Assembly (NCBI GenBank): GCA_021287075.1
Contig: JAJTBD010000008.1
Coordinates: 1 to 64,000 of the forward strand
DNA length: 64,000 bases
DNA from: Micrococcales bacterium
Lineage (GTDB): Bacteria > Actinomycetota > Actinomycetes > Actinomycetales > Dermatophilaceae
Reading direction: 5' to 3'
Shown here: positions 4,985-59,988 of the stretch, piece by piece
Layout of the letters: each line of letters begins with the position of its first letter
Position numbering within the stretch: the first letter of the stretch is position 1
The notes under the pieces: model-generated
What the model was told of the DNA's origin: nothing
What the model saw: only the letters and a program-made list of their open reading frames with translations
The model's database searches: none
Translations under genes and position numbers: made by a program

Positions 4985-6192
4985 TGCGTGGCACTCCCCT
5001 GGTCCTGGGCGATCTCGAGGCCGAGTATCGCGGCGGCTCGCTCGCGCGCCCAGGCATCGGCGCGGAGCACCTGCTCAACGCTCTCGGCGCCGGATTCGAT
5101 CCCGGCGTGCTCGTCGACGACACGGGCGATGGTGTCGACGATGTCGAGGAAGCCGATCCGCCCCTCGTGGAAGGCGTCGACGCCGACCTCGTTGGCCGCG
5201 TTGTAGACGGCAGGATAGGTCGAGCCGGCCTCCCCCACCCGGCGCGCGAGCTGCACGGCCGGGAAGGCCTCGTCGTCGATCGGCTCGAAGCGCCAGTCGG
5301 CAGCCTTGGTCCAGTCGACGGGCGTCTCGATGTCGACGAGCCGCTCCGGCCACGAGAGACCGAGGGCGATCGGCGCGAGCATCGTCGGCAGCCCGATCTG
5401 GGCGACGACGGCACCGTCGTGGAACTCGACCATCGAGTGGATCATCTGCTGCGGGTGGACGACGGTGTCGATGCGGTCCATCGGCACGTCGAAGAGCAGG
5501 TGCGCCTCGATGACCTCCAGCCCCTTGTTGACCAGCGTCGCGGAGTTGGTGGTGATCACCCGACCCATCGCGAAGTTGGGATGCCTGAGCGCCTGCGCCG
5601 GCGTCACCTCGCGCAGTTGCTCGCGGGTCATCCCGCGGAAGGGCCCGCCACTGGCCGTGACGACGAGCCGGCGCACCTCCTCGGCGCGACCGGCCTGGAG
5701 CGACTGCGCGATCGCCGAGTGCTCGGAGTCGACGGGCACGATCTGGCCGGGCGCCGCAGCCGCCTTGACGAGCGGGCCGCCGACGATGAGCGACTCCTTG
5801 TTTGCCAGCGCGAGGGTCGCGCCGCTCTCAAGGGCCGCGAGTGTCGGACGCAGCCCGATCGAGCCGGTGATGCCGTTGAGGACGACGTCGGCGCCACAGG
5901 CCGCGGCGCGCGTGGCCGCCTCGGGACCGACCACGCACTCAGGGGCGTATGCCGCGAGGCCGGCCTGCGCGGCATACCTCCCGATGGCGGCGCGCAGCGC
6001 CTCCTGATCCCCCGACGCGAGCGCGACCAGCGGCGCCCTGGTGGCGACGGCCTGCTGCGCGAGCAGGTCGAGGTTGCCACCGGCCGACAGGGAGGCGACG
6101 GTGAAGCGGTCGGGGAAGCGAGCGATGATCTCCAGGCCCTGGGTGCCGATGGACCCGGTCGAGCCGAGGACGGCGATGCTGCGCTGACTCAC
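4981..6192 (-). CDS. dxr: 1-deoxy-D-xylulose 5-phosphate reductoisomerase
   Basis: First committed MEP-pathway enzyme: DXP to 2-C-methyl-D-erythritol 4-phosphate with NADPH and a divalent metal. The 403 residues match family length. The Rossmann nucleotide motif GSTGSIG is at residues 10-16. The metal/substrate motif VDSEHSA and the phosphate-binding SGGPFRG follow in the expected order. The C-terminal helical domain has AANEVGVDAFHEGRI. Its stop overlaps the rip1 start (ATGA). Only 13 bases separate its start from the thioesterase stop upstream, so it may be in one transcript with that gene. Confidence 0.97.
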   Translation of the reverse strand: MSQRSIAVLGSTGSIGTQGLEIIARFPDRFTVASLSAGGNLDLLAQQAVATRAPLVALASGDQEALRAAIGRYAAQAGLAAYAPECVVGPEAATRAAACGADVVLNGITGSIGLRPTLAALESGATLALANKESLIVGGPLVKAAAAPGQIVPVDSEHSAIAQSLQAGRAEEVRRLVVTASGGPFRGMTREQLREVTPAQALRHPNFAMGRVITTNSATLVNKGLEVIEAHLLFDVPMDRIDTVVHPQQMIHSMVEFHDGAVVAQIGLPTMLAPIALGLSWPERLVDIETPVDWTKAADWRFEPIDDEAFPAVQLARRVGEAGSTYPAVYNAANEVGVDAFHEGRIGFLDIVDTIARVVDEHAGIESGAESVEQVLRADAWARERAAAILGLEIAQDQGSATQ

Positions 6193-6842: not shown

Positions 6843-8978
6843 ATGATGTCTGTCGGTAACCGTCCAAGCGGCGCAGCGGGTGCTGCGCCGGTCCGCAACG
6901 TGGTGCTCGTGGGCCCCCGTGGAGCCGGGAAGACCATGCTGGTCGAGAGCGTGCTGCTCAAGACGGGCAAGATCACCAGGCTCGGGAGCATCGCTGACGG
7001 GACAACGGTTTCCGACTACACCGACACCGAGAAGCGCCTCGGCCACTCCGTCGCCCTCACGGTCGCGACGACCGAGGTCGCCGACTCCTCGATCACCGGC
7101 GGCGAGCCGGTCACGGTCACCCTGCTCGACACCCCCGGCCACCCCGACTTCGTCGGCGAGCTGCGGGCCGGGCTGCGCGGCGCCGACGCCGCGCTCTTCG
7201 TCGTCTCGGCCGCCGACGGCATCGACGAGGCCACCCGCCTGCTGTGGTCGGAGTGCTCCGCGGTCGGTATGCCGCGTGGTGTCGTGATCACCCACCTCGA
7301 CGGCCCGCGCGCCGACTACCTCGCGACCGTCGAGGAGTGCCGCGCGGCCTTCGGCGACGGCGTCCACCCGATCTATGCGCCCAAGGGCGAGGAGATGGTC
7401 GGGCTGCTGTCGGCCACCATCGGCCAGGACGGCGCCATGCGCGAGGCCAGCGACGACGATCTCGGCGACTACGCGGCGATGCGCGACGAGGTCATCGAGG
7501 CGGTCATCACCGAGTCCGAGGACGAGTCGCTGCTCGACCGCTATCTCGGCGGCGAGAGCGTCGGCTTCGACACCCTGGTCGAGGACCTCGAGAAGGCCAT
7601 CGCCCGGGCGTCCTTCTTCCCCGTCGGACCGGCCAACCCCACGACCGAGTTCGGCACCCGCGAGGTGCTCGAGCTGATCACCCGCGGCTTCCCCACCCCG
7701 GCCGAGCACCACATGCCCGAGACCTTCAGCCTCGACGGTGTCCCGCAGGACGAGCTGGTGCCCGCCGCCGACCAGCCGCTGGTCGCCCAGGTGCTCAAGA
7801 CCACCTCCGACGCCTATGTCGGGCGCGTCTCGATCGTGCGCGTCTTCGCCGGCACGCTGACCGCCGACACCCAGGTGCACATCAGCGGCCACCTCTCGCA
7901 GTTCACCGGCCTCGACGCCGACGAGCAGTGGCACGCCAGCCACGACGAGGACGAGCGGGCCGGCGCCCTCTCGACGATGTGCGGCGACAAGCTGACCACC
8001 GTCGAGCAGGCCTGCGCCGGTGACATCGTCGCCGTCGCCCACCTGACGCGCGCCGAGACCGCCGACACGATCTCCGCGGCCGAGAAGCCGGTCGTCATCG
8101 CGCCGTGGCGCTTCCCCCACCCGCTGCTGCCGGTCGCCCTCAAGGCCGCCTCCAGCAAGGACGAGGACAAGCTCGCAAAGTCGATCGGCCGCGTCCAGGC
8201 CGAGAACCCGTCCGTCATGGTCGTCACCGACTCCCAGACCCACCAGCTGGTGATGTGGACGATGGGCGAGCAGCAGCTCGAGCTCATCCTCGACGGTCTG
8301 CGCACCCGCATGGGCGTCGCCGTCGACGTCGAGCCGCTCAAGGTCGCCATGCAGGAGACCGTGCGAGCGGCGGCCAACGGCACCGGCCGGCACGTCAAGC
8401 AGTCCGGTGGCCACGGCCAGTTCGCGATCGCCCACATCGTGCTCGAGCCCATGCCCGAGGGCGGCGGCTTCGAGTTCGTCGACGAGGTCGTCGGCGGGGC
8501 CGTGCCGCGCCAGTTCATCCCGTCGGTCGAGAAGGGCGTGCGCGCCCAGCTCGAGAAGGGCGTCACCGGCTATCCGATGGTCGACGTCCGCGTGCGCCTG
8601 GTCGACGGCAAGGCCCACTCGGTCGACTCCTCCGACGCGGCCTTCCAGACGGCCGGCGCCATGGCGCTCAAGGACGCCGCCGCGGCGGCCGGTGTGCAGC
8701 TGCTCGAGCCGGTCGACGACGTCGAGATCACCATCGGTGACGACTTCGTCGGCCCGGTGATGTCCGACCTGGCGACCCGCCGCGGCCGGCTCAAGGGCTC
8801 CGAGCCCGCCGGTGAGGAGGGCCGCACGGTCGTCCGCGCCGAGGTGCCCGCGTTCGAGCTGGTGCGCTATCCGACCGTGCTGCGCTCGGTCGCGCACGGC
8901 TCGGGTGAGTTCAGCCGCAGCTATGTCCGGCACGCCCCCGTGCCCGCCAGCGTCCAGGAGCGCATCCAGAACGCCTGA
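6843..8978 (+). CDS. EF-G-like translational GTPase (FusA2 type)
   Basis: 711-residue protein with the EF-G domain order: GTPase domain, beta barrel and the C-terminal domains III-V (FAIAHIVLEPMPEGGGFEFVDEVVGG; LEPVDDVEITIGDDFVGPVMSDLATRRG). G1 is GPRGAGKT at residues 24-31 and G3 is DTPGH at 96-100. G4, normally NKxD or TKxD, reads THLD at 150-153. This is typical of the second EF-G-like paralogue of actinobacteria rather than the housekeeping fusA, which would be expected beside rpsL-rpsG-tuf. The role of the paralogue is not settled. It stands alone, followed by a 38-base perfect palindrome. Confidence 0.92.
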   Translation: MMSVGNRPSGAAGAAPVRNVVLVGPRGAGKTMLVESVLLKTGKITRLGSIADGTTVSDYTDTEKRLGHSVALTVATTEVADSSITGGEPVTVTLLDTPGHPDFVGELRAGLRGADAALFVVSAADGIDEATRLLWSECSAVGMPRGVVITHLDGPRADYLATVEECRAAFGDGVHPIYAPKGEEMVGLLSATIGQDGAMREASDDDLGDYAAMRDEVIEAVITESEDESLLDRYLGGESVGFDTLVEDLEKAIARASFFPVGPANPTTEFGTREVLELITRGFPTPAEHHMPETFSLDGVPQDELVPAADQPLVAQVLKTTSDAYVGRVSIVRVFAGTLTADTQVHISGHLSQFTGLDADEQWHASHDEDERAGALSTMCGDKLTTVEQACAGDIVAVAHLTRAETADTISAAEKPVVIAPWRFPHPLLPVALKAASSKDEDKLAKSIGRVQAENPSVMVVTDSQTHQLVMWTMGEQQLELILDGLRTRMGVAVDVEPLKVAMQETVRAAANGTGRHVKQSGGHGQFAIAHIVLEPMPEGGGFEFVDEVVGGAVPRQFIPSVEKGVRAQLEKGVTGYPMVDVRVRLVDGKAHSVDSSDAAFQTAGAMALKDAAAAAGVQLLEPVDDVEITIGDDFVGPVMSDLATRRGRLKGSEPAGEEGRTVVRAEVPAFELVRYPTVLRSVAHGSGEFSRSYVRHAPVPASVQERIQNA

Positions 8979-8982
8979 CCTC

Positions 8983-9070
8983 AGATCGGCTCTCGCCCAA
9001 GGCGATTGACCACACAGGTATGCCGCCGTGCCCGGCCGGGCACGGCGGCATACCGCTGTCTGTGGGGGCG
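8983..9070. repeat. Intergenic cassette copy 1 with 38-bp perfect palindrome
   Basis: Bases 9017-9054 form a perfect 19+19 inverted repeat whose arms begin and end with GGTATGCCGCC/GGCGGCATACC. Flanks include CCAAGGC on the left and CGCTGTCTGTGGGGG on the right. The block aligns without gaps to 9851-9938 on the other side of the DoxX gene. It follows the EF-G-like stop and could act as a terminator or mRNA-end hairpin, though it lacks a clean T-tract. Confidence 0.85.
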
Positions 9071-9223
9071 GTCAGGGACTGTCGCGCGGGACGTGGGGCA
9101 AGTCACATCGAATCCCCTGCAAATAGCACAAACCCCGGGACCGAAGACCCAACAAATGGGGTGAAAGTGTCAGAATTGCACTACCTGCTGTTCAACGACG
9201 ATCAGCTGACTTGGAGGTCCCCG

Positions 9224-9847
9224 ATGACACCATCATCCCGTCCCCACGATGACGATCGCGTCCGCGCCGACCGTGCCTACGACGACACCGTCCGCGATGA
9301 CCGCGCCTACGACAACCGCGTCGAGGCCAGCCGCACCCGCGATGTCCGCGACGACCGCGTCCACACCGACCGGGCCTATGACGACCGGGTCGGCGTAGTG
9401 GGCGACGGTGAGGCGCACGGCCGCATGCTCGACGTCGGGCTGCTGCTGCTGAGGCTGTTCTGCCTCGCGCTGGTCTTCCACGGCATCAACAAGATCACCC
9501 ACTCCTCGGGCTTCATCGGCGGGCTGGAGAACTTCCCCGTCGGCAAGGCCGCGCCGAGCCTGTTCGGCTGGATGATCATCCTCGGCCAGATCTTCCTGCC
9601 GCTCCTCGTCGCGCTGGGCCTGTTCACCCGCTGGGCCGCGGCACTGATCGCCATCATGATGGTCGCGATCTGGATCTTCGTCGACTTCATGAGCCCCGAC
9701 TACACCTTCCTCGGCGAGCACGGCGAGATCTTCGGCGAGTCCGCCCTCCAGTACGCCTGGCTCACGATCCCGCTCATCTTCACCGGGGCCGGTCGCTACT
9801 CACTCGACTGGAACATGTTCGGCCGCAAGCGTCACAGCACGGTCTGA
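9224..9847 (+). CDS. DoxX family membrane protein with repetitive N-terminus
   Basis: 207 residues. Residues 1-55 are a hydrophilic region of imperfect 10-13-residue units around DRAYDD (three clear copies: ADRAYDD, DDRAYDN, TDRAYDD) separated by R/D-rich linkers. The rest is a four-helix DoxX domain: MLDVGLLLLRLFCLALVFHGINK, LFGWMIILGQIFLPLLVALGLF, WAAALIAIMMVAIWIFVDF and YAWLTIPLIFTGAGRYSLD. A GGAGG ribosome site 8 bases upstream decides the ATG at 9224. DoxX proteins are integral membrane proteins linked to redox homeostasis in some species; no substrate is evident here. The repeat-rich N-terminus is unusual and also makes the DNA repetitive. Confidence 0.88.
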   Translation: MTPSSRPHDDDRVRADRAYDDTVRDDRAYDNRVEASRTRDVRDDRVHTDRAYDDRVGVVGDGEAHGRMLDVGLLLLRLFCLALVFHGINKITHSSGFIGGLENFPVGKAAPSLFGWMIILGQIFLPLLVALGLFTRWAAALIAIMMVAIWIFVDFMSPDYTFLGEHGEIFGESALQYAWLTIPLIFTGAGRYSLDWNMFGRKRHSTV

Positions 9848-9850
9848 TCC

Positions 9851-9938
9851 AGACCGGTTCTCTGCCAAGGCAACTCACGCACAAGGTATGCCGCCGCGCC
9901 CACCCGGGCACGGCGGCATACCGCTGTCTGTGGGGGGC
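9851..9938. repeat. Intergenic cassette copy 2 with 38-bp imperfect palindrome
   Basis: Bases 9885-9922 repeat the palindrome of copy 1 with three changed positions in the left arm; the right arm is identical. The whole 88-base block aligns to 8983-9070 without gaps. It lies between the convergent DoxX and barstar genes and ends next to the barstar stop codon at 9941, so it is well placed as a bidirectional terminator. Confidence 0.85.
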
Positions 9939-9940
9939 GC

Positions 9941-10297
9941 TCAGCGCTCGATGATCGCGATGCTCAGGCCGTCGTGGTCTGACTCGACCTCGCCCAGGAT
10001 CTCCAGGATCGAGGCATAGGTCTCGGGGTCGGCGGCGCGCAGCTCCGCGGCGTCATCCCAGACGATCTCCCACTCCCCCGACCCGCGCGCGGCCTGCTCG
10101 TCGGCGAGGTCGCCGAGGCAGTCATAGAGCGCGTCGAGGTTGTGCCCGAAGTAGTCGGGGAAGCCGAGCGCGTCGGCGAAGGACGCGAGCGTGGCCTCCT
10201 TGTCGGCGCCGCCCTTGACGAGGGAGACCGAGCGGCCGGCTCGCTGCGCCGCACGCACGACTGCGGTGACAGAGGTCTGCGCGTCCAGGTGCCTCAC
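9941..10297 (-). CDS. Barstar-family ribonuclease inhibitor
   Basis: 118-residue cytosolic protein of the barstar fold, which blocks the active site of a barnase-type RNase. The hallmark region ALGFPDYFGHNLDALYDCLGDL is present at about residues 44-65, with the acidic inhibitor helix and Asp/Glu-rich C-terminal half. The start overlaps the stop of the upstream RNase gene by 4 bases (10294-10297), so toxin and inhibitor are translationally coupled. The secreted RNase would act outside the cell, and the inhibitor would protect the producer from precursor that folds inside. Function is inferred from family and context. Confidence 0.92.
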   Translation of the reverse strand: MRHLDAQTSVTAVVRAAQRAGRSVSLVKGGADKEATLASFADALGFPDYFGHNLDALYDCLGDLADEQAARGSGEWEIVWDDAAELRAADPETYASILEILGEVESDHDGLSIAIIER

Positions 10298-20467: not shown

Positions 20468-21584
20468 GCACTCCGAGATCGAGAGCATCGCCTCCCTCGA
20501 GCAGGCGCTGGCCGATGGCACGCCGCTGTCGGGACTGCGCCTGCAAGACCTCGACCTGCGCGGCCACGAGGAGGAGCTGCTCGCCCGCACCGACCTCACG
20601 GGCCTGGTCGTGCTCGGCGGGTCACTCACCGAGCGCCTCGACGAGCACCTGCGCCGACAGGGCGCGCTCATCTTCCCCACCGACCCCCACTGCCCGGTCA
20701 ATCCCTATCGGGCCCAGCTGTATTCGCCTGCCGAGCTCTATGCCGGCCTCGACACCGAGGGCTATGACGCGACGCCCGACGCGCGGGCCTATCACTGGGC
20801 CCAGGACGGCGACCTGCACCACGACGCCTTCACCACGCTGCTGCGCGCCATCCACGATGACTCGATCACCGACGCCCTTCGCGAGCGGATCGAGGGCGCC
20901 CGGCTCGTCGGTGTGATGGGCGGCCACGCGCTCGCGCGCGGCACCGAGGGGTATGCCGCTGCGGCGCGCCTCGGCCACACCCTCGCCGACACCGGCCTCA
21001 CCGTCGTCACCGGCGGCGGGCCGGGCGCCATGGAGGCGGCCAACCTCGGCGCCTTCTGTCGCACAGCCGAGCAGGTCGACCGAGCACTCGAGCAGGTCGC
21101 GGCCGTGCCGGGATTCCGGCCCAGCATCGCCGAGTGGGCCCGCGTGGCGCTCGACGCACGCCAGAGCGTCCTGCCCCAATCGGCCACTCCCACAGCGGAT
21201 CCCGCGCCAGCTGCCCCGCGCAGCATCGGCGTCCCGACCTGGTTCTATGGGCACGAGCCGCCCAATGTCTTCTGTGACGGCATCGCAAAATACTTCTCCA
21301 ACGCACTGCGCGAGGACCTGCTGCTGGCCATGGCCGGCGCGGGCATCATCGTCCTGGAGGGCGCCGCCGGCACGGTGCAGGAGGTCTTCCAGATCGCGAC
21401 GCGGCTCTACTACGCGCCACCCGAGACGGGGCCCCTCCCCCCGCTGGTGCTGGTCGGCGCCGAGCACTGGGCCGAGCGGCTGCCGGCGTGGCCGCTGCTC
21501 CAGGCGCTCGGCCGCGACCGCGCGATGGGCGAGGCCATCCACCTCGTCGACTCGATCGACGAGGCCGCTGCGCTCATCCGGTGA
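20457..21584 (+). CDS. LOG-family Rossmann nucleotide-binding protein
   Basis: 375-residue protein. An N-terminal domain of about 145 residues is followed by a TIGR00725/LOG-like Rossmann fold: GVMGGHALARGTEGYAAAARLGHTLADTGLTVVTGGGPGAMEAAN, then IIVLEGAAGTVQEVFQIATRLYY. The LOG signature PGGxGTxxE appears as EGAAGTVQE, so the second Gly and the Pro are changed. The family includes cytokinin-activating phosphoribohydrolases and proteins of unknown activity. The extra N-terminal region (LQDLDLRGHEEELLARTDLTGL) suggests the long multidomain subgroup. Start at 20457 lies within the DUF952 gene end. Confidence 0.82.
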   Translation: MAIEHSEIESIASLEQALADGTPLSGLRLQDLDLRGHEEELLARTDLTGLVVLGGSLTERLDEHLRRQGALIFPTDPHCPVNPYRAQLYSPAELYAGLDTEGYDATPDARAYHWAQDGDLHHDAFTTLLRAIHDDSITDALRERIEGARLVGVMGGHALARGTEGYAAAARLGHTLADTGLTVVTGGGPGAMEAANLGAFCRTAEQVDRALEQVAAVPGFRPSIAEWARVALDARQSVLPQSATPTADPAPAAPRSIGVPTWFYGHEPPNVFCDGIAKYFSNALREDLLLAMAGAGIIVLEGAAGTVQEVFQIATRLYYAPPETGPLPPLVLVGAEHWAERLPAWPLLQALGRDRAMGEAIHLVDSIDEAAALIR

Positions 21585-23695: not shown

Positions 23696-23757
23696 AACCG
23701 CCCCATTGTCTCAGGAGCAGGGGTATGCCGCGTGCGCCAGCCCCCGGAGCGGTCGCC

Positions 23758-26158: not shown

Positions 26159-28120
26159 ATGAAGTCCGGCATCATCGCCGCCCACCTCGACCGCTCGGTC
26201 CGTCCCCAGGACGACCTGTTCCGGCACACCAACGGCGCGTGGCTCGACACCGTGAGCATTCCCGCCGACCGGGGCCGTTATGGCACCTTCGATGTGCTTC
26301 GCGAGCAGTCCGACGAGCGGGTCCGGGCGCTGGTCGAGGAGGCCGAGCGCGACACCGGCGCCGAGGCAGGCTCGCCGCGGCGCAAGGTCGGCGACCTCTA
26401 TCGCGCCTTCATGGACACCGAGCGGGTCGAGTCGCTCGGGCGCACGCCGATCGACGCCGACCTGGCCGAGATCGCGGCCGTGGGCGATGTCGAGGGGCTG
26501 ATGCGCACGATGGGGCGGCTCCAGCGCGAGGGCCTCCCCGGCCTGCTCGGCTACTACGTCGCCCCCGACGCGGCCGACCCCGAGTCCTATGTCCTGTGGG
26601 TCGTCCAGTCGGGCCTGGGCATGCCCGACGAGTCCTACTACCGCGAGGAGCGGCACGCCGAGGTGCGGGCGAAGTACCTCCCGCACATCGCCCGGATGCT
26701 CCACCTGGGCGGGCTCGGCGACGGCGAGAGCGGCGAGGGCTCCCTGGCCGCCCGGGTGCTGGCGCTGGAGACCGCGCTGGCCAGCCACCACTGGGACAAC
26801 GTGACCTCCCGTGACGCGGTCAAGGGCTACAACCCCCGGACCCGGGCCGAGCTCGAGGAGGCCGCCCCGGGGCTGCCGTGGGCGGCATACCTCGAGGGTC
26901 TTGACGCGGAGGCGGCGTTCGAGCGGGTGGTCGTGCGCCACCCCGACTTCCTCCCTGGCATCTCCGAGCTGCTCACGTCGGTGCCGCTGGCCGACTGGCA
27001 GGCCTGGCTGGCCTTCCATCTGATCAGCGACGCCGCTCCCCTGCTGAGCCAGGAGTTCGTCGACGCGCAGTTCGACTTCGATGGCCGGGTCATCTCCGGC
27101 CTCCCGGAGAACCGCGAGCGGTGGAAGCGCGGTGTCGGTCTCGTCGAGGGCTGCATCGGTGAGGCCGTGGGGCAGCTCTATGCCGAGCGGCACTTCCCGC
27201 CCGAGGCCAAGGAGCGGATGCGGGTGCTCGTGGACAACCTCGTGGAGGCCTTCCGGCGGTCCTTCGCCCACCTGCCGTGGATGGGCCCGGAGACGCGTGC
27301 GCAGGCGCTCGACAAGCTCGAGGCCTTCCGGCCCAAGGTCGGCTACCCAGACGTCTGGCGCGACTACTCGGTGCTGGAGATCGACGACGACCTGGTCGGA
27401 TCCGCCCGTCGCGCAGCGGTTTTCGAGCACGAGCGCCAGCTGGGCAAGCTGGGCGGGCCCATCGACCGCGACGAGTGGATGATGCTGCCGCAGACGGTCA
27501 ACGCCTACTACAGCCCGCTGATGAACGAGATCGTCTTCCCCGCCGGCATCCTCCAGCCGCCGTTCTTCGACATGGACGCCGACGACGCGGCCAACTACGG
27601 CGGCATCGGCGCGGTGATCGGCCACGAGATCGGCCACGGCTTCGACGACCAGGGCTCTCGCTTCGACGCACGCGGGGCCCTGCGGGACTGGTGGACCGAG
27701 GAGGACCGGGCGCGCTTCGACGAGCTCACTCAGCGTCTGATCGCCCAGTTCGGCGAGCTCTCGCCGTCGCAGGTGCCCGACCAGCGGGTCAACGGCGCGC
27801 TGACGGTCGGCGAGAACATCGGGGACCTGGGTGGCCTCGCGATCGGGTATGCCGCCTATCGCATCGCCACCGAGGCGGCCGGCATGCCCGAGCTCGACGG
27901 ATACACCGGGCCGCAGCGCTTCTATCTCGGCTGGGCCCAGGTGTGGATGGGCGCGGCCCGCCCCGAGGAGGCCGCGCGGCTGCTCGCGATCGACCCCCAC
28001 TCCCCCCAGGAGATCCGCGCCAACGCGGTGCGCAACTGCGACGGCTTCCACGAGGCCTTCGCCACCGCCGAGGGTGACGGCATGTGGTTGTCCCCGGAGG
28101 AGCGGGTGCGGATCTTCTAG
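26159..28120 (+). CDS. M13 family zinc endopeptidase (neprilysin/PepO-like)
   Basis: 653 residues. Zinc site HEIGHGFDD with HEIGH at 489-493, third ligand E552 in GENIGDLGG, and substrate-binding NAYYSP upstream. The N-terminal domain starts DDLFRHTNGAWLDTVSIPADRG, typical of bacterial M13 proteins. The C-terminus LSPEERVRIF is a variant of the usual ...RVRVW. No signal peptide is seen, so it is probably cytosolic and cleaves peptides. It carries GTATGCCG motifs at 26883 and 27847, like the native genes, and marks the left edge of the accessory block. Confidence 0.93.
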   Translation: MKSGIIAAHLDRSVRPQDDLFRHTNGAWLDTVSIPADRGRYGTFDVLREQSDERVRALVEEAERDTGAEAGSPRRKVGDLYRAFMDTERVESLGRTPIDADLAEIAAVGDVEGLMRTMGRLQREGLPGLLGYYVAPDAADPESYVLWVVQSGLGMPDESYYREERHAEVRAKYLPHIARMLHLGGLGDGESGEGSLAARVLALETALASHHWDNVTSRDAVKGYNPRTRAELEEAAPGLPWAAYLEGLDAEAAFERVVVRHPDFLPGISELLTSVPLADWQAWLAFHLISDAAPLLSQEFVDAQFDFDGRVISGLPENRERWKRGVGLVEGCIGEAVGQLYAERHFPPEAKERMRVLVDNLVEAFRRSFAHLPWMGPETRAQALDKLEAFRPKVGYPDVWRDYSVLEIDDDLVGSARRAAVFEHERQLGKLGGPIDRDEWMMLPQTVNAYYSPLMNEIVFPAGILQPPFFDMDADDAANYGGIGAVIGHEIGHGFDDQGSRFDARGALRDWWTEEDRARFDELTQRLIAQFGELSPSQVPDQRVNGALTVGENIGDLGGLAIGYAAYRIATEAAGMPELDGYTGPQRFYLGWAQVWMGAARPEEAARLLAIDPHSPQEIRANAVRNCDGFHEAFATAEGDGMWLSPEERVRIF

Positions 28121-28173
28121 GATCTGCTCGTGGCCGGGACGGGACCCGGCCGGGCAGGGACAGGGGAACGCAC

Positions 28174-28608
28174 GTGACACGTCCACCCCGGGATCAGGGG
28201 ATCGCGGGCCGGGCGCTCAGCCGACGCCAGTTCGGCGCCGTGGCGCTCGGGGCTGCCGCGACCGTGGGGCTGCCCGGCACCGATGCCGCGCCGCTGCACA
28301 CCCTCGCGCAGACGCGGGCGAAGTTCGCCGGCCAGGCCCCCGGCTACTGGGGGCTCGAAGCGCCGGAGGTCATCCGGCGCTTCCCGACGGCGACCGCGGC
28401 CGGGCGGGATGCCGTCTGCCTGACCCTCGACGCGTGTGGGGGCGGCGGCTCGCTGGAGTTCGACTCACTGGTCATCGGGGTCCTGCGGATGCTGGAGACG
28501 CCGGCGACCCTCTTCATCAACCGGCACTGGGCCCAGCGCAACCGCACCGTCTTCGCCAGCCTGCTCGCAGATCCCCTCTTCGACATCCAGCAGCACGGCG
28601 ACCGCCAT
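28174..28608 (+). pseudogene. Polysaccharide deacetylase, 5' part, split by transposon
   Basis: The first 145 codons of a secreted NodB-type deacetylase. The GTG at 28174 has AGGGGAAC upstream. Residues 10-35 form a Tat-type signal (SRRQFGAVALGAAATVGLPG). The catalytic Asp motif TLDACGGGG and the start of the zinc His motif HGDRH are present. Coding stops matching directly after that second His at 28608, where the IS21-like element begins. The 3' part resumes at 34612; joining the halves with one 8-base repeat gives an uninterrupted 281-residue protein. Cell-wall or polysaccharide de-N-acetylation is the likely former role. Confidence 0.88.
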
Positions 28609-28658
28609 GGCTCTGTTCGTGTGAGTTGACCGCGTTTGCTTGCGCGTTTTGACTGCGG
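28609..28658 (+). repeat. Left terminal inverted repeat of the IS21-like element
   Basis: Pairs with 34562-34611 at roughly two thirds of positions, best over CGTGTGAxTxGACCGCG. It contains TTGACCGCG and TTTGACTGCGGT, probable transposase-binding repeats. Confidence 0.75.
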
Positions 28659-28750
28659 TCTACCCGTGACGGCGGCCTCTAGCGTTGGCGAGATTTGACC
28701 GCAGTAGCCAGTGCTTCAGGGACAGGGGGCTGCCGTGCCCGCGGAAGGCG

Positions 28751-30811
28751 TCACGGCGTCCTGTCGCGCAGGAGGCGCAGCACGAACAGTGCGGTCGCTG
28801 CGGAGGTCAGGACTGCTACCAACAGGTACGCGGTGAGTGCTGGCAGGTCGACGACGGTGATCCGGTTGGTCCGACCAGAGAACGCCACGAGGCATCCTGC
28901 GAGGAAGCCGAGGACTGCTCCGGAGGCTAGCGGGACCAGAGTGCTTGCGCGACTGATGCTGATGATCTCCACGGGACGCAGACCGGCGCGAATCATGGTG
29001 TATCGGTCGGTCCAGGTCAGCCTCATGACGCGGTCCCCGACCTCGCGGAGGACGGCCAGGCTCAGTGCCGCTGTGGTGACGAGCCAAGCAACGAGCAGCC
29101 ACTTGAAGTACAGCGGCGCGGCGAGGGTCGAGGGGGTCAGCTCCCGGATGTTCAGTGCGGGTGCGATCGGGGCGAGTGCTTGGTAGAGGGTGGAGTCGGC
29201 GAGCGGCTTGTCCTTGATGATGACTGCGGCTTCTGTGTCAACGGGGCCCGCTCGCTCGCTGGTCTGAATGCCACTCGACTCGAGAAGCGCGAGGGGTCTT
29301 CCCGACCTGATCGCTGAGCAGGCGCTGGCCCCCGACGGAGCGCAGTCGGCGAGGTTGACAGATGTCTGTCCATCGCTGTCGCGGTGGACGGGAAGGGCGG
29401 CTGCGTCCACTGAGGCCGCCGCGGCGATGACCTCGGACCACGTGGTGTTCTCTGCGCCGACCCAGTCGACGTAGGCGATGGATGCGTTCCGATTTGACGT
29501 CCCATCGAGTCGTCCATCGAGGAGGGTGCCGTAGACCGCGACACTGGAACAGCCCAGAAGAGTCAGGGCTCCCAGCAGCGCCGCGGGGCGTGCACTGTTC
29601 CTTGGGGAGAAGGTGAGCTGACGTCCTGCAAGCCAGAGGCGGGGTGCGCGGTGGCGGCTCATGGCGGCTCCCAAGAGCGCGGTCAGGAGCGGCGTCGCTA
29701 GCAGCACTCCGACGAATAGCACCATGGTTCCGATCCCGAGCAGGGTCCCGCTGAAGCGTCCCACCCAAGCCGAGACCACCATCAGAACGCCGGCGACGAG
29801 AGGCAGCAGCTCCCACCAATGCACCGATCGGGAGCCGCGACGACCGGTTGCACTCCGCACCATGCCCGAGGCCGCCGAGGCGAGACCGATCGCCACGAGC
29901 ACCACGGGGAGCGTGACGATCAACGGAAGGGCGAAGGTCCCCTGCTTGAGGACCGTGCCTACCATAGGCACTGTGGTCGTCCTGCTGACCGCGAACCACC
30001 AGGTAATGAAGGCCAGCACGGCCCCCGGAACCGCTAGCGACGCAGTCTCCAAGGCGAGCAGCCACCGGACCCTGTTTGTGGCTACACCGAGCCGCATCAG
30101 CGTTGCCGCGCGGGCCGTTCGCGTCGGTGACAGCGCGCGCCCCCCAAGGCCTAGGACGACCAGCGCGGGGATCAAAAGGAGGAGAACGACCCCGAACGGC
30201 GCAATGTCCCAGCCGATAAGCGGTGGCTGGGTAGTCCACCCGGTCGGCTCCGCGGGGCCCTGAGGACCGTACCCGCGGAAGGCCAACAGGGCCCCTTCCC
30301 GGCCCAGGGACTGTCCTTCACGGGGTCGGGCATAGATGAGGGGCTCGCTCATCGTCGCCAGCCCGTCGGCGCCGATCGCCGGTCCGCCACCGGCACCAGC
30401 TCGGGACGGGAGCATTCCCAGGCTGGATGCGTCGATGCCTTGAGAGAGCAGCCCGGGTGAAAGGACCATCTCACCCGGCCCTGGAAGCCGGTCGAGGCCA
30501 GGCGGGACAGTGGTGTACCCGGCGGCGGGCGGACGCTCGCCGGGCTCCAGCCATGTCACGGGCACTTGAGCCCCGTCGATGATGATGGCGCGAGCCCGAA
30601 CCACGAGGGCTGGCGACTCGTCCGGCGCGGCCCACACAGGGGAGCGGTGGCGCAAATCGGACTCGGACCGTGCTACGCCGGCCGTCACGCTCGCTGCAGT
30701 CAACAGCATGAGGGTGCCGAGGAAAAGGCTCGCGATGACGCTCAGCTGTCGCCATCGCGCCCGCGGGTCCGGGGAGTACGCCATTCGCACCGCGAGCCGC
30801 AACGTGATCAT
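28751..30811 (-). CDS. FtsX-like ABC transporter permease (transposon cargo)
   Basis: 686-residue membrane protein with about ten hydrophobic segments: one near residue 35 (LSVIASLFLGTLMLLTAASV), a roughly 170-residue extracytoplasmic region, a group from FGVVLLLLIPALVVLGLGG to LLGALTLLGCSSVAVYG, a second soluble region, and a C-terminal group ending LLVAVLTSAATALFVLRLL. This is the duplicated MacB/FtsX layout. The ATG at 30811 overlaps the ATPase stop by 4 bases. It should form a complex with that ATPase to export or extract the small secreted product encoded upstream, or to confer immunity to it. It resembles bacteriocin-associated permeases by size and layout only. No GTATGCCG motif occurs in it. 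Confidence 0.82.
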   Translation of the reverse strand: MITLRLAVRMAYSPDPRARWRQLSVIASLFLGTLMLLTAASVTAGVARSESDLRHRSPVWAAPDESPALVVRARAIIIDGAQVPVTWLEPGERPPAAGYTTVPPGLDRLPGPGEMVLSPGLLSQGIDASSLGMLPSRAGAGGGPAIGADGLATMSEPLIYARPREGQSLGREGALLAFRGYGPQGPAEPTGWTTQPPLIGWDIAPFGVVLLLLIPALVVLGLGGRALSPTRTARAATLMRLGVATNRVRWLLALETASLAVPGAVLAFITWWFAVSRTTTVPMVGTVLKQGTFALPLIVTLPVVLVAIGLASAASGMVRSATGRRGSRSVHWWELLPLVAGVLMVVSAWVGRFSGTLLGIGTMVLFVGVLLATPLLTALLGAAMSRHRAPRLWLAGRQLTFSPRNSARPAALLGALTLLGCSSVAVYGTLLDGRLDGTSNRNASIAYVDWVGAENTTWSEVIAAAASVDAAALPVHRDSDGQTSVNLADCAPSGASACSAIRSGRPLALLESSGIQTSERAGPVDTEAAVIIKDKPLADSTLYQALAPIAPALNIRELTPSTLAAPLYFKWLLVAWLVTTAALSLAVLREVGDRVMRLTWTDRYTMIRAGLRPVEIISISRASTLVPLASGAVLGFLAGCLVAFSGRTNRITVVDLPALTAYLLVAVLTSAATALFVLRLLRDRTP

Positions 30812-31497
30812 GCTGTTGGCTGTCCGATCACGGCCGTGTCGAGGATGTGCGTTCGGTCGCACACCGAGGCAACCTCCGGGTCGTGGGTGGCCATGACGAG
30901 TGTGGCGCCTCGTCGGCGCACGGAGGCGACCAGGGTCTCGACGACCTCGTCGGCGCGCTGACGATCCAGGGATGCCGTCGGTTCGTCGGCGATGACGAAC
31001 GTGGCACTAGGGCGCCCCAATGCGCGGGCAATCGCGACCCGCTGTCGTTCACCGCCCGACAGCTCGGCCGGCTTGCGTCGCCCCAACCCCTCGAGCCCCA
31101 CCGACGCCAAGGCGTTGTCGGCTTCGGCGAGGGCTTGGGCACGACGGACTCCGTCGAGGATCATCAGCAGTCCTACGTTCTCGCGAGCATTCAGCTCGGG
31201 GAGGAGGTCCCCGTCCTGGAACACCAATCCCAGTGCTCTGCGACGCTGCTCGGCCCGCTCGGCCGGCGAGGCTGACCCGAGATCCATGCCGAGGACTTCG
31301 ACGGCACCGGAGCTCGCTTGGACCGTACCGGCCAGGAGACCAAGAAGAGTGCTCTTGCCGGATCCAGAAGGGCCCATGAGGGCGAGCACCTCACCCGGCG
31401 AGACGTCGAGGCTGGTTCGGGGCAACGCGCGGGTTGCCCCGAACCAGACCTCCGCTTCTCGCAGAGAAGCAGCGAACGTCACTTCGGGTAGACCCAT
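30808..31497 (-). CDS. ABC transporter ATPase, MacB/LolD type (transposon cargo)
   Basis: 229-residue ATPase. Walker A GPSGSGKSTLL, Q-loop GLVFQDGDLLPELNARENV, signature LSGGERQRVAIARAL, Walker B FVIADEPTASLD and H-loop MATHDPEVA are all intact. Length and the ENV motif put it with the LolD/MacB ATPases that pair with FtsX-like permeases. The ATG at 31497 lies inside the 3' end of the secreted-protein gene (19-base overlap), so the three genes form one operon. Confidence 0.9.
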   Translation of the reverse strand: MGLPEVTFAASLREAEVWFGATRALPRTSLDVSPGEVLALMGPSGSGKSTLLGLLAGTVQASSGAVEVLGMDLGSASPAERAEQRRRALGLVFQDGDLLPELNARENVGLLMILDGVRRAQALAEADNALASVGLEGLGRRKPAELSGGERQRVAIARALGRPSATFVIADEPTASLDRQRADEVVETLVASVRRRGATLVMATHDPEVASVCDRTHILDTAVIGQPTA

Positions 31498-31838
31498 GCG
31501 CCGTAGTCGTCGGCGGAGACCGGGATGACCTCGACCACCCGGTGCTTGTAGACCAGGCGGCTCGTGGACACCGAGTTGGAGTTGTTGCATCCGATGTAGT
31601 TGTCGAAGCTGTTCGTGGTACTGGATCCGGTCAGGACGTAGTCGGATCGGACTCCGTGGCCGTCGCACTCACCGTCGCGGAGGGTGATCTTCTTGCCGGT
31701 CGAGTCGTTCTGTGAGTAGTCCGATCCGCTCCTGCTCGTCTCCACCGAGACGGCCATGGCGGAGGGAACAGCCATAGCCATCAGCCCCACGCCAGCGCAC
31801 ACGGCCATCAGCCCGCGAGAAACCTTTGCCTTCTTCAT
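31479..31838 (-). CDS. Small secreted protein of unknown function (transposon cargo)
   Basis: 119 residues. A Sec signal peptide is clear: MKKAKVSRGLMAVCAGVGLM then AMAVPSAMA with an AxA cleavage site near residue 29. The mature part, about 90 residues, is rich in Ser, Asp, Asn and Tyr, with two Cys (GECDGHG and IGCNNS) about 30 residues apart that could form a disulphide, and ends DDYGAWVYPK. A near-perfect AAGGGGGATC ribosome site precedes the ATG. It is the first gene of an operon with an ATPase and an FtsX-like permease, an arrangement seen for secreted bacteriocins. I could not match it to lactococcin 972 or another named family. The 226 bases upstream of it, to istB, hold no other gene. 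Confidence 0.8.
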   Translation of the reverse strand: MKKAKVSRGLMAVCAGVGLMAMAVPSAMAVSVETSRSGSDYSQNDSTGKKITLRDGECDGHGVRSDYVLTGSSTTNSFDNYIGCNNSNSVSTSRLVYKHRVVEVIPVSADDYGAWVYPK

Positions 31839-32064
31839 GATCCCCCTTCCAACCCCGATGTGGTCGATCGTTTGATCGGCCTGCTGCGAACCCTAGAGTC
31901 GAAGTACCGGCTCGGCAACCGGTGGGGCGAAGATCCTCAGAAGTTCGGCACGTCGTCGTTCTGTTGGAACCGCGAGGCCGCTCTCGGAGCGCCCTGTTAT
32001 GGGGCGTCCGTGACGACCCGGCGGATAGGAACCTGTGCCTCAAGGAGTCGTTCGAAGGCTCTCA

Positions 32065-32841
32065 CTACTCTCGCGCGCTACGGCTGTGTGCGAGGCGGTA
32101 GGAGTCGGTGCCGGTTTCGATGATGGTGCCGCCGTAGGTGATTCGGTCGACGATCGCGGCGCAGAGGCGGGGGTCGGTGAAGGTCTTGGTCCAGCCGGAG
32201 AAGGACTCGTTGGAGGCGATCGCCACGGAGTTCTTCTCTTCGCGTTCGGTCAGGACCTGGAAGAGCATCTCGGCGCCGCGGCGGTCGAGCACCATGTAGC
32301 CGAGCTCGTCGATCATCAGCAGGTCCACCCGGCCGTAGCGGGCGATGGTCTTGGTCAGGACCATCTCGTCGGCGGCTTCGACGAGCTCGTTGACGAGCTT
32401 GGTGGCCAGGGTGTACTTGACCCGGTAGCCGGCCATCGCGGCCTCGGTGCCGAGGGCGATCAGCAGGTGGGACTTGCCGGTGCCGGAGTCCCCGATCAGG
32501 CAGAGGGGTTCGCCGCGTTTGACCCATTCGCTGGTGGCCAGTGTGTGGATGGTGGCCGGGTCGATGTTGGGGTTGGCCTCGAAGTCGAACCCGCGCAGGG
32601 ACTTCTCCCGTGGGAATGCCGCGGCCTTGATCCGGCGTTCGGAGCGGCGCCGGGCCCGGTCGTCGCACTCGGCCAGCAGCAGCTCGGCCAGGAACGCCCG
32701 GTAGGACATCTGGTCTCGCAGTGCCTGTTCGGCCAGGTCGGGGAAGCGTGCCCGGATGGTGGGGAGCCGAAGCATCCGGCAGGCCTGGTCAACAGCGGTG
32801 TCGGCGGCCTGCTCACTCATCGTGCGGCGGCGTGCGCTCAT
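32065..32841 (-). CDS. istB: IS21 family helper ATPase IstB
   Basis: 258-residue AAA+ ATPase that helps the IS21 transposase choose and assemble on target DNA. Walker A GDSGTGKSHLL, Walker B DLLMIDELGY and the sensor region SVAIASNESFSGW are intact. Start overlaps the istA stop by 4 bases, the standard istAB coupling. Length is normal, so it is probably functional. Confidence 0.95.
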   Translation of the reverse strand: MSARRRTMSEQAADTAVDQACRMLRLPTIRARFPDLAEQALRDQMSYRAFLAELLLAECDDRARRRSERRIKAAAFPREKSLRGFDFEANPNIDPATIHTLATSEWVKRGEPLCLIGDSGTGKSHLLIALGTEAAMAGYRVKYTLATKLVNELVEAADEMVLTKTIARYGRVDLLMIDELGYMVLDRRGAEMLFQVLTEREEKNSVAIASNESFSGWTKTFTDPRLCAAIVDRITYGGTIIETGTDSYRLAHSRSARE

Positions 32842-34472
32842 GGTCTCCTCCGGGGAGCGGGTCGGGCCAGCCGCAGCAGCTGGTCGTAGGCGGCGACCGA
32901 GGGCAGCGGCCTCGGGTCAGGTGGCAGGCGGGCCAGCCGCCGTTGGGTCAGCGAAGCGACAATGGGCGCCTGGGTGAGCGTGTCGTGCAGGTCCGGCGCG
33001 GGCGGTCCGGCCCGCTCGGTGTCGGCGGCCTTGCGGGCCTCCAGGGCGACCGCGTCCGCGGTCCACGCCCCGACCTTCAAGGCGATCGCGAGGCCGGCCA
33101 CGACCTGCTCCTGCGGCATGTGCCGATGCAGCAGGAGCACCTCGATCAGCGCCCGGGTGCCGGCGGTGTCACCGTGGGCCTTGCACGCCCCGGCCCACCA
33201 CGCGTCGTGGACAGGGGTGAACTGCCCGGCCGCGCGGGCCTGCTCCAAGGCGGTGGCCCCGGGCAGCGCCCCGGGTTTGCGGATCAAGGTCTCCAGGTAA
33301 TGGTCCAGGTCCAGACGGGTCCCGCCCTTGGTGAGCATCCGTTCGTGCCGGGCGACCTCGACCCGCCCGTCGAAGACCACCAAATGCGAGGCGTGCAGCA
33401 GGACCGCGACCTGCCGTCCGATCAGCCGGGCCGGGACTGAGTACCGGTTGGTGCGCACGGTGACTTGCCCGTACCGGTCGACCCGGGGATGGAACCAGCG
33501 GCCGGTCTCGTAGTGCTCCACGGGCAGCGGCTTGAGCGATGCCGCCTCCACGGCGAAGAGTTCACCGACGGTGCGTGGCCGGTCCCCGATCCGCCGCTTG
33601 TCGTCGGCGGTGTCCCACGCGTCGACCCGTGCGTTCAGCTCATCCAAAGTGGCCACGTCGGGGACGGGGACCAGGTGGTTGCGGCGGAAGCGGCCGATGT
33701 CGCCCTCGACCCCGCCCTTCTCGTGAGCGCCGCCCAAGCCGGGCTGGCAGTAGAACGCCTCCAGCCCGTAGTGCGAGCGGAACGCGACCCACCGGTCGGT
33801 CTCGACCCGCTGCCGGCTGAAGCCCAGCACCCGAGCCACCGCGGCCTTGAGGTTGTCGTAGCGGACCTTCCCGCTCGGCGCGCCACCGAGCGCGTGCAGG
33901 GCGTGCACGTGCCCTTCCAGGAACGCCTCCTGCCCGCCCGTGGCGAAGACCCGGTGCACCGCCTTGCCCGAGTACGAGAGCCGGAACGAGAACAGCTGCA
34001 GCACGACCAACTCCCCGGCCAGGCGCACCGTGACGTCTCCGAAGTCGACCTCGGCCTCCGCTCCCGGCAGGTGTGACTGTGGGACGAACGCCTCGGTCGG
34101 TGCCCGGCCCTCCTCGACCCGGATCTCTGGGCGGCGCCGGGCGACGTAGGCGCGGACCACCGCGTAGGACACGTTCCTCATGTCCTGCTCCTCGACGAGA
34201 CGGTCGAAGATCCGCTTAATCGTGTGCCGCTGCTTACGTGGTGCATCCAAGTCTTCACGTAGCCACTGGTCGATGGTCGGCTTGAACCGATCGAGCTTCG
34301 ATGGCCGCGCCAGTGGCTTCTTCCGCTGGGCCGGCCACGCCGACGCTTCGGCCGCGAGCACCGTCTTGCGACCCACGCCGTGCTTGGCCTGGATGGCTCG
34401 CTGGGATAGCCCGGCCCGCGAATCCCGACGGATCGCGGCATACAGCTCAACCTTGGAGGTCGTGGCCGCCAT
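32838..34472 (-). CDS. istA: IS21 family transposase IstA
   Basis: 544 residues. N-terminal helix-turn-helix SKVELYAAIRRDSRAGLSQRAIQAKHGVGRKTV; DDE catalytic core with Asp in AEVDFGDV, Asp in VRYDNLKAAV and Glu in EKGGVEGDIGRFRRN. GGAAGGTG directly before the ATG at 34472 supports this start; an in-frame start at 34595 would run through the terminal repeats. The gene is full length. Its outer end faces the right inverted repeat about 90 bases away, as usual for IS21. Confidence 0.95.
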   Translation of the reverse strand: MAATTSKVELYAAIRRDSRAGLSQRAIQAKHGVGRKTVLAAEASAWPAQRKKPLARPSKLDRFKPTIDQWLREDLDAPRKQRHTIKRIFDRLVEEQDMRNVSYAVVRAYVARRRPEIRVEEGRAPTEAFVPQSHLPGAEAEVDFGDVTVRLAGELVVLQLFSFRLSYSGKAVHRVFATGGQEAFLEGHVHALHALGGAPSGKVRYDNLKAAVARVLGFSRQRVETDRWVAFRSHYGLEAFYCQPGLGGAHEKGGVEGDIGRFRRNHLVPVPDVATLDELNARVDAWDTADDKRRIGDRPRTVGELFAVEAASLKPLPVEHYETGRWFHPRVDRYGQVTVRTNRYSVPARLIGRQVAVLLHASHLVVFDGRVEVARHERMLTKGGTRLDLDHYLETLIRKPGALPGATALEQARAAGQFTPVHDAWWAGACKAHGDTAGTRALIEVLLLHRHMPQEQVVAGLAIALKVGAWTADAVALEARKAADTERAGPPAPDLHDTLTQAPIVASLTQRRLARLPPDPRPLPSVAAYDQLLRLARPAPRRRP

Positions 34473-42453: not shown

Positions 42454-43873
42454 CTACCGGCCGGTGGGGGTGGCGGAGAAATCCGGGGCGACGCCCGGCC
42501 AGGGTGCTCCCGGTGCAGCTGGGCGGCCACCGAGAGGATGCGCCCCTCCCCTCCTCGCGGGCCGATCAGCTGGGCCCCGATCGGCCATCCCTCGCGGCTG
42601 AGCCCGGCGGGGACGCTGGCCCCCGGGTGGCCGCTGACGTTGAGCAGCGTCGTGAACGCGATGAAGGGCATCGAGCGCGTCATCGCGTGCAGGCTGCCGG
42701 CCGCGTCGAGCTGTCCGATCGCCGGCGGGAGCGCCGCCATCGTGGGGGTCACCAGCAGCGCATAGGGAGCGAGTATGCCGTCAAGCCGGTCCGCGACCCG
42801 CTCCCCGTCCCTGCGTGCCCGGGCGAGCACCGGCCCCCGCGCCCACGCGCCCATCGAGGCGGTATGCCGCGTGCGCGCCTCCAGTCGCTCGGGGTGCTCC
42901 ACGCGCCGGGTCTCCTCGCGGATGGAGGCGAAGAACTGCGGCACGAAGGACGCGGTGGGATAGGGCCAGTCCGGCTCGATGCGCTCCACGTCGTGGCCGA
43001 GACCGGCCAGCAGCCCGGCGAGCGCCTCGACCGCCTGCCGCACCTGGGGGTCGACGGCCATGCCGGGCACGACGTTCTTGGTCGTCCACGCGATCCGGAG
43101 CCGGCCCGGCTCGGTGCGGGCCTGCTCGAGGAAGGGCCGCCCCGGCGGCTCGGCGTGCCAGCGGTCGCTCGGCAGCGACCCGCTGATCACGTCATAGACG
43201 AGCGCCGAGTCCTCTGGCGTGCGGGTGATCGGGCCGATCGTGCCCAGCGCCTCCCACAGGTCGGGGTGGGGACCGGCGCTGACCCGGCCGCGCTGTGGTT
43301 TGAGGCCGAACAGGCCACAGCAGCTCGCGGGGACGCGGATCGAGCCGCCGCCGTCTCCCCCGATCGCGACCGGCACCATCCCGGCCGCCACAGCGGCAGC
43401 CGACCCTCCGCTCGACCCGCCGGGCGAGCGCGTGAGATCCCACGGGTTGTGGGTCATGCCGTGCCGGCGGGACTCGGTGAAGGGGAACTGGCCGAACTCC
43501 GGCATGTTGGTCTTGCCGACCACGATGGCGCCCGCCGCCCGCAGTCGGCGCACGACCTCGGAGTCCTCAGCTGCCGGCGTGGAGTTGCCCAGACCGCCGT
43601 GCGTGGTGACCAGGCCCGCGACGTCGTCCTCCTCCTTGACCGCGACCGGGACCCCCGCGAGCGGCCCGTCGCGTCGGGGGTCTCCCCGTCCAGGGCGACG
43701 GCCTCGGCCAACGCGGCCTCGCGGCATACCTGCGTGAAGGCCCCGATGGGCCCGTCCAGCTCGGCGATCCGCGCGAGCGCGGCCTCGACGCCCTCGACGG
43801 CGCTGAGGTGGCGCGAGCGCACAGCCTCGGCGTGCTCGATCGCGGACAGGCGGGCCAGCGAAGCGGCGTCCAT
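42454..43873 (-). pseudogene. Amidase (amidase-signature family) with two frameshifts
   Basis: Starts MDAASLARLSAIEHAEAVRS at 43873 and reads to ALDGETPDA, then homology moves to another frame near 43680 as [19 protein letters not shown], which contains the catalytic Lys. The Ser-rich signature [17 protein letters not shown] and nucleophile region [20 protein letters not shown] are intact. A second one-base slip near 42490 converts a normal end (HPWPGVAPDFSATPTGR, stop at 42454) into a Pro/Arg-rich tail that runs to 42378. Restoring one base at each site gives a complete protein of about 470 residues. Aryl or alkyl amide hydrolysis would be the intact function; substrate unknown. Confidence 0.75.
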
Positions 43874-54539: not shown

Positions 54540-54576
54540 GGTATGCCGCGTGGCCGGGCCGGCCACGCGGCATACC
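54540..54576. repeat. GTATGCCG hairpin upstream of fetB-like gene
   Basis: Arms GGTATGCCGCGTGGCC and its exact complement (16 bp) around a 5-base loop. It ends 5 bases before the GTG of the next gene, so it may mask the translation start, or act as an operator or terminator for the divergent rplS region. Confidence 0.85.
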
Positions 54577-57215: not shown

Positions 57216-57323
57216 GTCGCGGTCCTCTCCCCCTGGTGGCATGGCGTCGGCCAACTCTACTTAACGCCGCGTGATGACTTGCATAAGCCCCCGTTCCGAG
57301 GGCGGTATGCCGCGGCCGCGCCC

Positions 57324-59944: not shown

Positions 59945-59988
59945 AGGCGGGGTATGCCGCGGAGCTGGCTCCGCGGGATACCCCGCCT
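59945..59988. repeat. GTATGCCG-type hairpin between khpA and rimM
   Basis: 20+20 inverted repeat with one mismatch and a CTGG loop; left arm starts AGGCGGGGTATGCCGCGGAG. Lies between the KH gene stop and rimM start on the same strand, so it could attenuate or process the rpsP-khpA-rimM-trmD transcript. Confidence 0.8.

Follow-up and report, generated by a model that had tools for sequence, protein, structure and literature searches.

Why should a single bacterial gene be bracketed by two nearly identical palindromic blocks? The question is raised by a locus of a high-GC actinobacterium of the family Dermatophilaceae, contained in a stretch of 64,000 nucleotides that was analysed as a whole and is hereafter called the window. 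In this locus the gene of a DoxX-family membrane protein lies between two 88-base blocks, which the original prediction described as gapless copies of each other, carrying 38-base palindromes, the first of them perfect, and a common right flank. Sequence analysis confirmed each of these points. Specifically, the blocks align without gaps with 71 of 88 bases identical, the left hairpin consists of a perfect 17-bp stem with a loop of 4 bases, the right one has a stem of 12 + 4 bp with one mismatched pair inside, and the right flank GCTGTCTGTGGGGG is common to both hairpins. The elements of the locus are the following.

6936 to 8978, + strand: EF-G-like (FusA2-type) gene preceding the left hairpin; its start is uncertain, the longest frame beginning at 6843
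8983 to 9070, no strand: left 88-base block, made of flank, hairpin and tail
9017 to 9054, + strand: left hairpin, two head-to-head copies of GGTATGCCGC, terminator-like, 38 bases past the EF-G-like stop codon
9055 to 9068, + strand: U/G-rich tail GCTGTCTGTGGGGG of the left hairpin, with similar tails at other hairpins
9224 to 9847, + strand: DoxX-family membrane protein gene (PF07681, E 3.9e-14)
9851 to 9938, no strand: right 88-base block
9885 to 9922, + strand: right hairpin, two head-to-head copies of GGTATGCCGC, terminator-like, between the convergent doxX and barstar genes
9923 to 9936, + strand: U/G-rich tail GCTGTCTGTGGGGG of the right hairpin, with similar tails at other hairpins
9941 to 10297, - strand: Barstar-family gene, convergent with doxX (PF01337, E 2e-21)

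Both hairpins are thus a head-to-head pair of the same 10-base word, GGTATGCCGC, and both lie just 3′ of a stop codon, since the EF-G-like gene ends at 8978 and doxX at 9847. Their folding energies (-49.0 kcal/mol on the left and -45.9 kcal/mol on the right, z about -5.2) are far better than those of shuffled sequence. Two such hairpins within 900 bases of each other are not rare by themselves, about 3 neighbouring pairs of this kind being expected with 153 hairpins in the genome. The tail CTGTCTGTGG is likewise not peculiar to this pair, as U/G-rich tails of a similar kind stand behind many hairpins. The left flanks of the two blocks, in turn, match at 22 of 34 bases, a likeness equalled by 10 of 200,000 random intergenic pairs and not found in the other hairpin copies inspected. 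This argues for a local duplication, in which one of the two putative terminators probably derives from the other; possibly doxX was gained together with it. Comparison with relatives returned no good match to the DoxX protein in 24 of them, and no doxX or barstar homologue within about 1.5 kb around the fusA2 homologue in 18; a search for DoxX in plasmids also gave no match. Among named genomes, a scan with fusA2 gave Streptomyces hits of 50-55% identity and distant MAGs, and no others. As far as these 24 and 18 relatives tell, the doxX arrangement appears to be local to the host genus. The N-terminus of the DoxX protein (window 9224-9400) carries repeated DDRxxxDRAYD-like units ahead of the membrane domain.

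When the genome was searched for further cassettes, a whole family emerged, with 15 exact GGTATGCCGCC...GGCGGCATACC hairpins and 153 hairpins with a 10-base arm, against 0 for the reversed control. This is not the outcome that would have spoken against the original prediction, namely a lack of other cassettes together with conservation of the two copies in distant relatives. The hairpin was also seen in 3 of 2.9 million viral contigs, most of them from viruses with other hosts. Other paired words in the window are listed here.

5946 to 5978, no strand: paired words inside a called gene, one arm being CGTATGCCGC
54540 to 54576, + strand: another exact hairpin of this kind, the third in the window
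59951 to 59982, + strand: hairpin with one mismatched arm (GCGGGATACC)

In this family the arms are fixed, and the inner stems vary freely yet stay complementary. What is repeated, in other words, is the arm rather than the palindrome. This bears directly on the proposal that the cassette is a mobile REP/MITE-like palindromic element serving as terminator. Many dispersed palindromes and two similarly flanked copies around doxX would suit such an element, and of the proposal the genome-wide family stands and the terminator role is probable. The mobile element does not: inner stems differ among copies with constant 10-base arms, the inspected copies lack long common flanks, and single words inside genes appear to have arisen by substitution, as described below.

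The placement of the pairs points to a role at gene ends. Among words lying within 60 bases of each other, head-to-head neighbours number 34 versus 6.2 expected and tandem ones 2 versus 12.3 expected, with 5 tail-to-tail. In a sample of 464 kb, 27 of 29 pairs are intergenic, mostly at gene ends and followed by U/G-rich tails; they occupy 9 of 68 convergent intergenic regions, 15 of 205 between genes in the same direction and 3 of 72 divergent ones, so that the higher share at convergent than at divergent ends is no more than a trend. As in intrinsic terminators, a G+C-rich hairpin follows the stop codon; the tail is U/G-rich. Many hairpins, in addition, have an A-containing stretch (for example CAGACA) before and a TGTCTG-like stretch after, an arrangement that suits termination on both strands. 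A consensus terminator scan requiring a strict T-run did not call the doxX-type hairpins, whose U/G-rich tail amounts to a weak U-tract, and in Rfam nothing scored above the gathering threshold. The paired-word hairpins probably work as terminators. It could then be supposed that conserved intrinsic terminators are all there is, with the hairpin as the functional unit and single words as its remnants. The position of the hairpins after stop codons, their strong folds and their U/G-rich tails speak for this account; of the 334 words in the 464-kb sample, however, only 54 belong to a pair, and most are single in genes and kept there by codon choice, which makes it very unlikely.

What, then, is the word itself? 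Exact GGTATGCCGC occurs 1,429 times genome-wide (693 forward, 736 reverse), whereas the reversed control word occurs 1 time, and in a de novo count against a fourth-order Markov background overlapping forms of GGTATGCCGC are the top 8- and 10-mers. Variation is tolerated as (G/C)GTATGCCG(C/T)G; the eight bases of the core allow almost no mismatch, apart from T to A at one position. The finer statistics cover 464-544 kb of the genome, in addition to the whole-genome counts. Genes were called by a simple codon-usage script, so that the fractions inside and between genes are approximate: about 60% of the copies lie inside genes, and in the 464-kb sample the density is 0.49/kb for the 199 copies in called genes and 2.06/kb for the 127 intergenic ones. 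The copies are spaced a little more evenly than random placement would give (variance/mean 0.69, P 0.04). In the 544-kb sample word density is lowest in the genes with the strongest codon bias (0.35/kb), compared with 0.9-1.06/kb in the second and third bins. The window has 25 exact copies, among which are these single words.

7266 to 7275, + strand: coding sequence of the EF-G-like gene, a site conserved in a relative (G099)
20950 to 20959, + strand: coding sequence
23722 to 23731, + strand: intergenic DNA
26882 to 26891, - strand: coding sequence
42861 to 42870, + strand: coding sequence
57304 to 57313, + strand: intergenic DNA

Within genes the word stands mainly in two frames, read as Tyr-Ala and Ala-Ala-Tyr, and here its effect on codon use becomes visible. 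Ala-Tyr is written GCA-TAC in 114 cases versus 12.6 expected and GCG-TAC in 6 versus 72 expected, TAT-GCC is found 271 times versus 131 expected, and 23 of the 53 rare ATA codons sit in the word. Synonymous codons at the word are thus distorted against the genome's own codon use, and it is the DNA word that is under pressure. One might have suspected that base composition or codon usage produces the word as a by-product, given that the genome is mostly genes and that Tyr-Ala and Ala-Tyr are ordinary dipeptides. This explanation was rejected, and we give it next to no probability, as the favoured codon pairs oppose the codon use of the genome, the word heads the de novo count while its reversed control is found once, and GGTATGCCGC stays at background across 19 other families of the order, where 362 genomes have a maximum of 23 copies.

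Distorted synonymous codons also indicate that the word is formed by substitution rather than brought in by an inserted REP/MITE. Accordingly, word sites lost in aligned relatives show 31 gap-free substitutions versus 4 cases with gaps, and 28 versus 5 in a second set. In the EF-G-like gene, the site at 7266 is common to the host and the relative G099, and three further sites occur in G099 alone. Conservation of word sites between G141 and G137 or G142 is 0.36-0.40, only mildly raised above the 0.23-0.24 of random 8-mers, which means that single word sites turn over. Codon choice and gap-free site loss exclude insertion of a REP/MITE for the bulk of the copies and, together with the fixed arms, led to the rejection of this candidate, which is hardly tenable.

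The distribution of the word among relatives is equally informative. Among the families of the order that were compared, its abundance is restricted to the host family, where roughly thirty of the 53 genera have at least 60 copies of GGTATGCCGC in one or more genomes. A second word, GCGAAGGGGG, unrelated to GGTATGCCGC in sequence, reaches 700-890 copies, in a survey of 45 genomes, in two sister genera only (g26 and g35), both of which lack GGTATGCCGC. In a g26 genome without GGTATGCCGC (G055), the top word is CGAAGGGGG, and there the second word lies mostly in genes. It also makes hairpins of its own, of the form CGAAGGGG...CCCCTTCG; in G091 (L178-L182) and G055 (L099-L103) these have TCGTCG-like tails and look like a second terminator-like family. 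A family in which two unrelated and mutually exclusive words behave alike is what one would expect from lineage-specific self-tags. Three genera (g12, g46 and g53) have ComEC and neither word at high count; either they have no uptake word or theirs is still to be found, and counting words de novo in G156, G184 and G022 brought up no clear third one. In a further genome, G083 of genus g32 (L104-L108, L150-L154), GTACGGCGTC and GTACGACGCC are about 8-fold over-represented, and its genus-mate G084 has 785 copies of GGTATGCCGC; possibly these are a further word, possibly a different phenomenon.

A short, non-palindromic word with a sharp core and fairly even spacing could also be a Chi-like site or another intracellular signal, read by a recombination nuclease or by a nucleoid-organising or segregation protein whose need for the site would keep it frequent, with the hairpin pairs as a by-product. 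Intracellular words can likewise be frequent in genes, and this is the main rival reading. Chi and KOPS have strand polarity. Such polarity was looked for stretch by stretch and not found: the 334 copies of GTATGCCGC in 464 kb are divided 73/72, 79/73 and 19/18 between the strands, and the second word is forward in 33 of 68 copies in G055. That head-to-head pairs stand behind genes in strong excess also speaks against an intracellular signal, and two unrelated exclusive words in one family would be less natural for a housekeeping site than for a self-tag that changes fast. On these grounds we consider the Chi-like reading unlikely.

The alternative is a signal read when DNA enters the cell, and the genome has the machinery of competence. 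It encodes adjacent comEA (SLBB and HHH domains) and comEC as well as two Tad-type ATPase clusters, one with TadE, and an actinobacterium, Micrococcus luteus, transforms via ComEA, ComEC and Tad/Flp pili (PMC6370729). ComEC was tried as a discriminator of word-bearing genomes and failed: 180 of the family's 186 genomes have it, word or no word. The largest word-free gap in 544 kb (window 27847-34436) contains genes of an IS21-type element, an istA/istB pair at window 32065-34472, a single case that is only suggestive.

The features by which DUS/USS are recognised recur here, namely abundance far above expectation, both orientations, genome-wide occurrence within and between genes, inverted pairs placed, as judged by sequence, where genes end, lineage-specific words and competence machinery. 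Against an uptake reading stand the mismatched core forms, rarer than expected for slowly decaying uptake sites, the several genera with neither word high, the failure of ComEC to discriminate, the unrelatedness of the two words and the weak U-tract. Weighing these, the word most likely works like a DUS, and it is rather likely that the full account holds: a word acting like a DNA uptake sequence, head-to-head pairs of it acting as terminators, and around doxX two such terminators linked by local duplication. From these patterns we infer an uptake preference, a receptor and a terminator activity. A natural-transformation receptor, which may sit on a Tad/Flp pilus and be backed by ComEA and ComEC, would prefer DNA bearing the word, so that DNA of kin would be taken up and recombined ahead of foreign DNA, and this preferred uptake would multiply the word. 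Where two words come to lie head to head after a stop codon, the transcript would fold into a strong hairpin with a U/G-rich stretch behind it and so form a terminator, possibly on both strands. We lean slightly towards a broader statement, in which this would be an actinobacterial uptake-sequence system: a monoderm, high-GC family would tag each genome with one of two or more unrelated words, a competence filament (probably Tad/Flp) would read them, and the system would have arisen independently of the two Gram-negative cases, with paired words again reused as terminators.

Why uptake words exist is still debated. If the uptake reading is true, uptake words would have originated separately a third time, in monoderm Actinomycetota and with unrelated words in two sister genera, which would make an independent test possible. 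Such a test would tell whether words arise from preferred uptake alone and whether reuse as terminators follows, whether the system requires an outer membrane, and by which protein the word is read. In addition, adding the word to DNA could ease the transformation of hard-to-engineer bacteria of the family.

Among known systems, the word shares with REP/MITE elements the dispersed intergenic palindromes, but its repeated unit is a 10-base arm, mostly single, found in genes and made by substitution. With Chi it has in common the frequent short non-palindromic form; unlike Chi, it has no local strand polarity, forms terminator pairs and is one of two mutually exclusive words in a family. The genome resembles M. 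luteus in ComEA, ComEC and two Tad-type clusters, whereas M. luteus has no described uptake word in the literature searched. In open-licence papers no published actinobacterial uptake word was found, and of 37 hits for the word itself the 15 listed look like chance occurrences in unrelated sequences. Uptake words are described, in the open-licence literature searched, only for Neisseriaceae and Pasteurellaceae, where DUS/USS include inverted pairs reused as terminators, according to a paper of 2025 and a terminator survey of 2026 (PMC12616744, PMC13020248). The USS of Pasteurellaceae are matched in genomic behaviour and in having more than one word type inside one family, and differ in phylum and word, while the two actinobacterial words are mutually unrelated; this likeness, as that to the DUS below, is one of genome sequence. 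From the DUS of Neisseriaceae, whose dialects differ by one or a few bases, our case departs in its mutually unrelated words, its high-GC actinobacterial host without outer membrane, its own unrelated word and a filament that would be Tad/Flp. It agrees with them in a word of about 10 bases, with more than 1,000 copies on both strands, in and between genes, in terminator-like inverted pairs and in words specific to lineages (PMC3630211, PMC12616744, PMC13020248).
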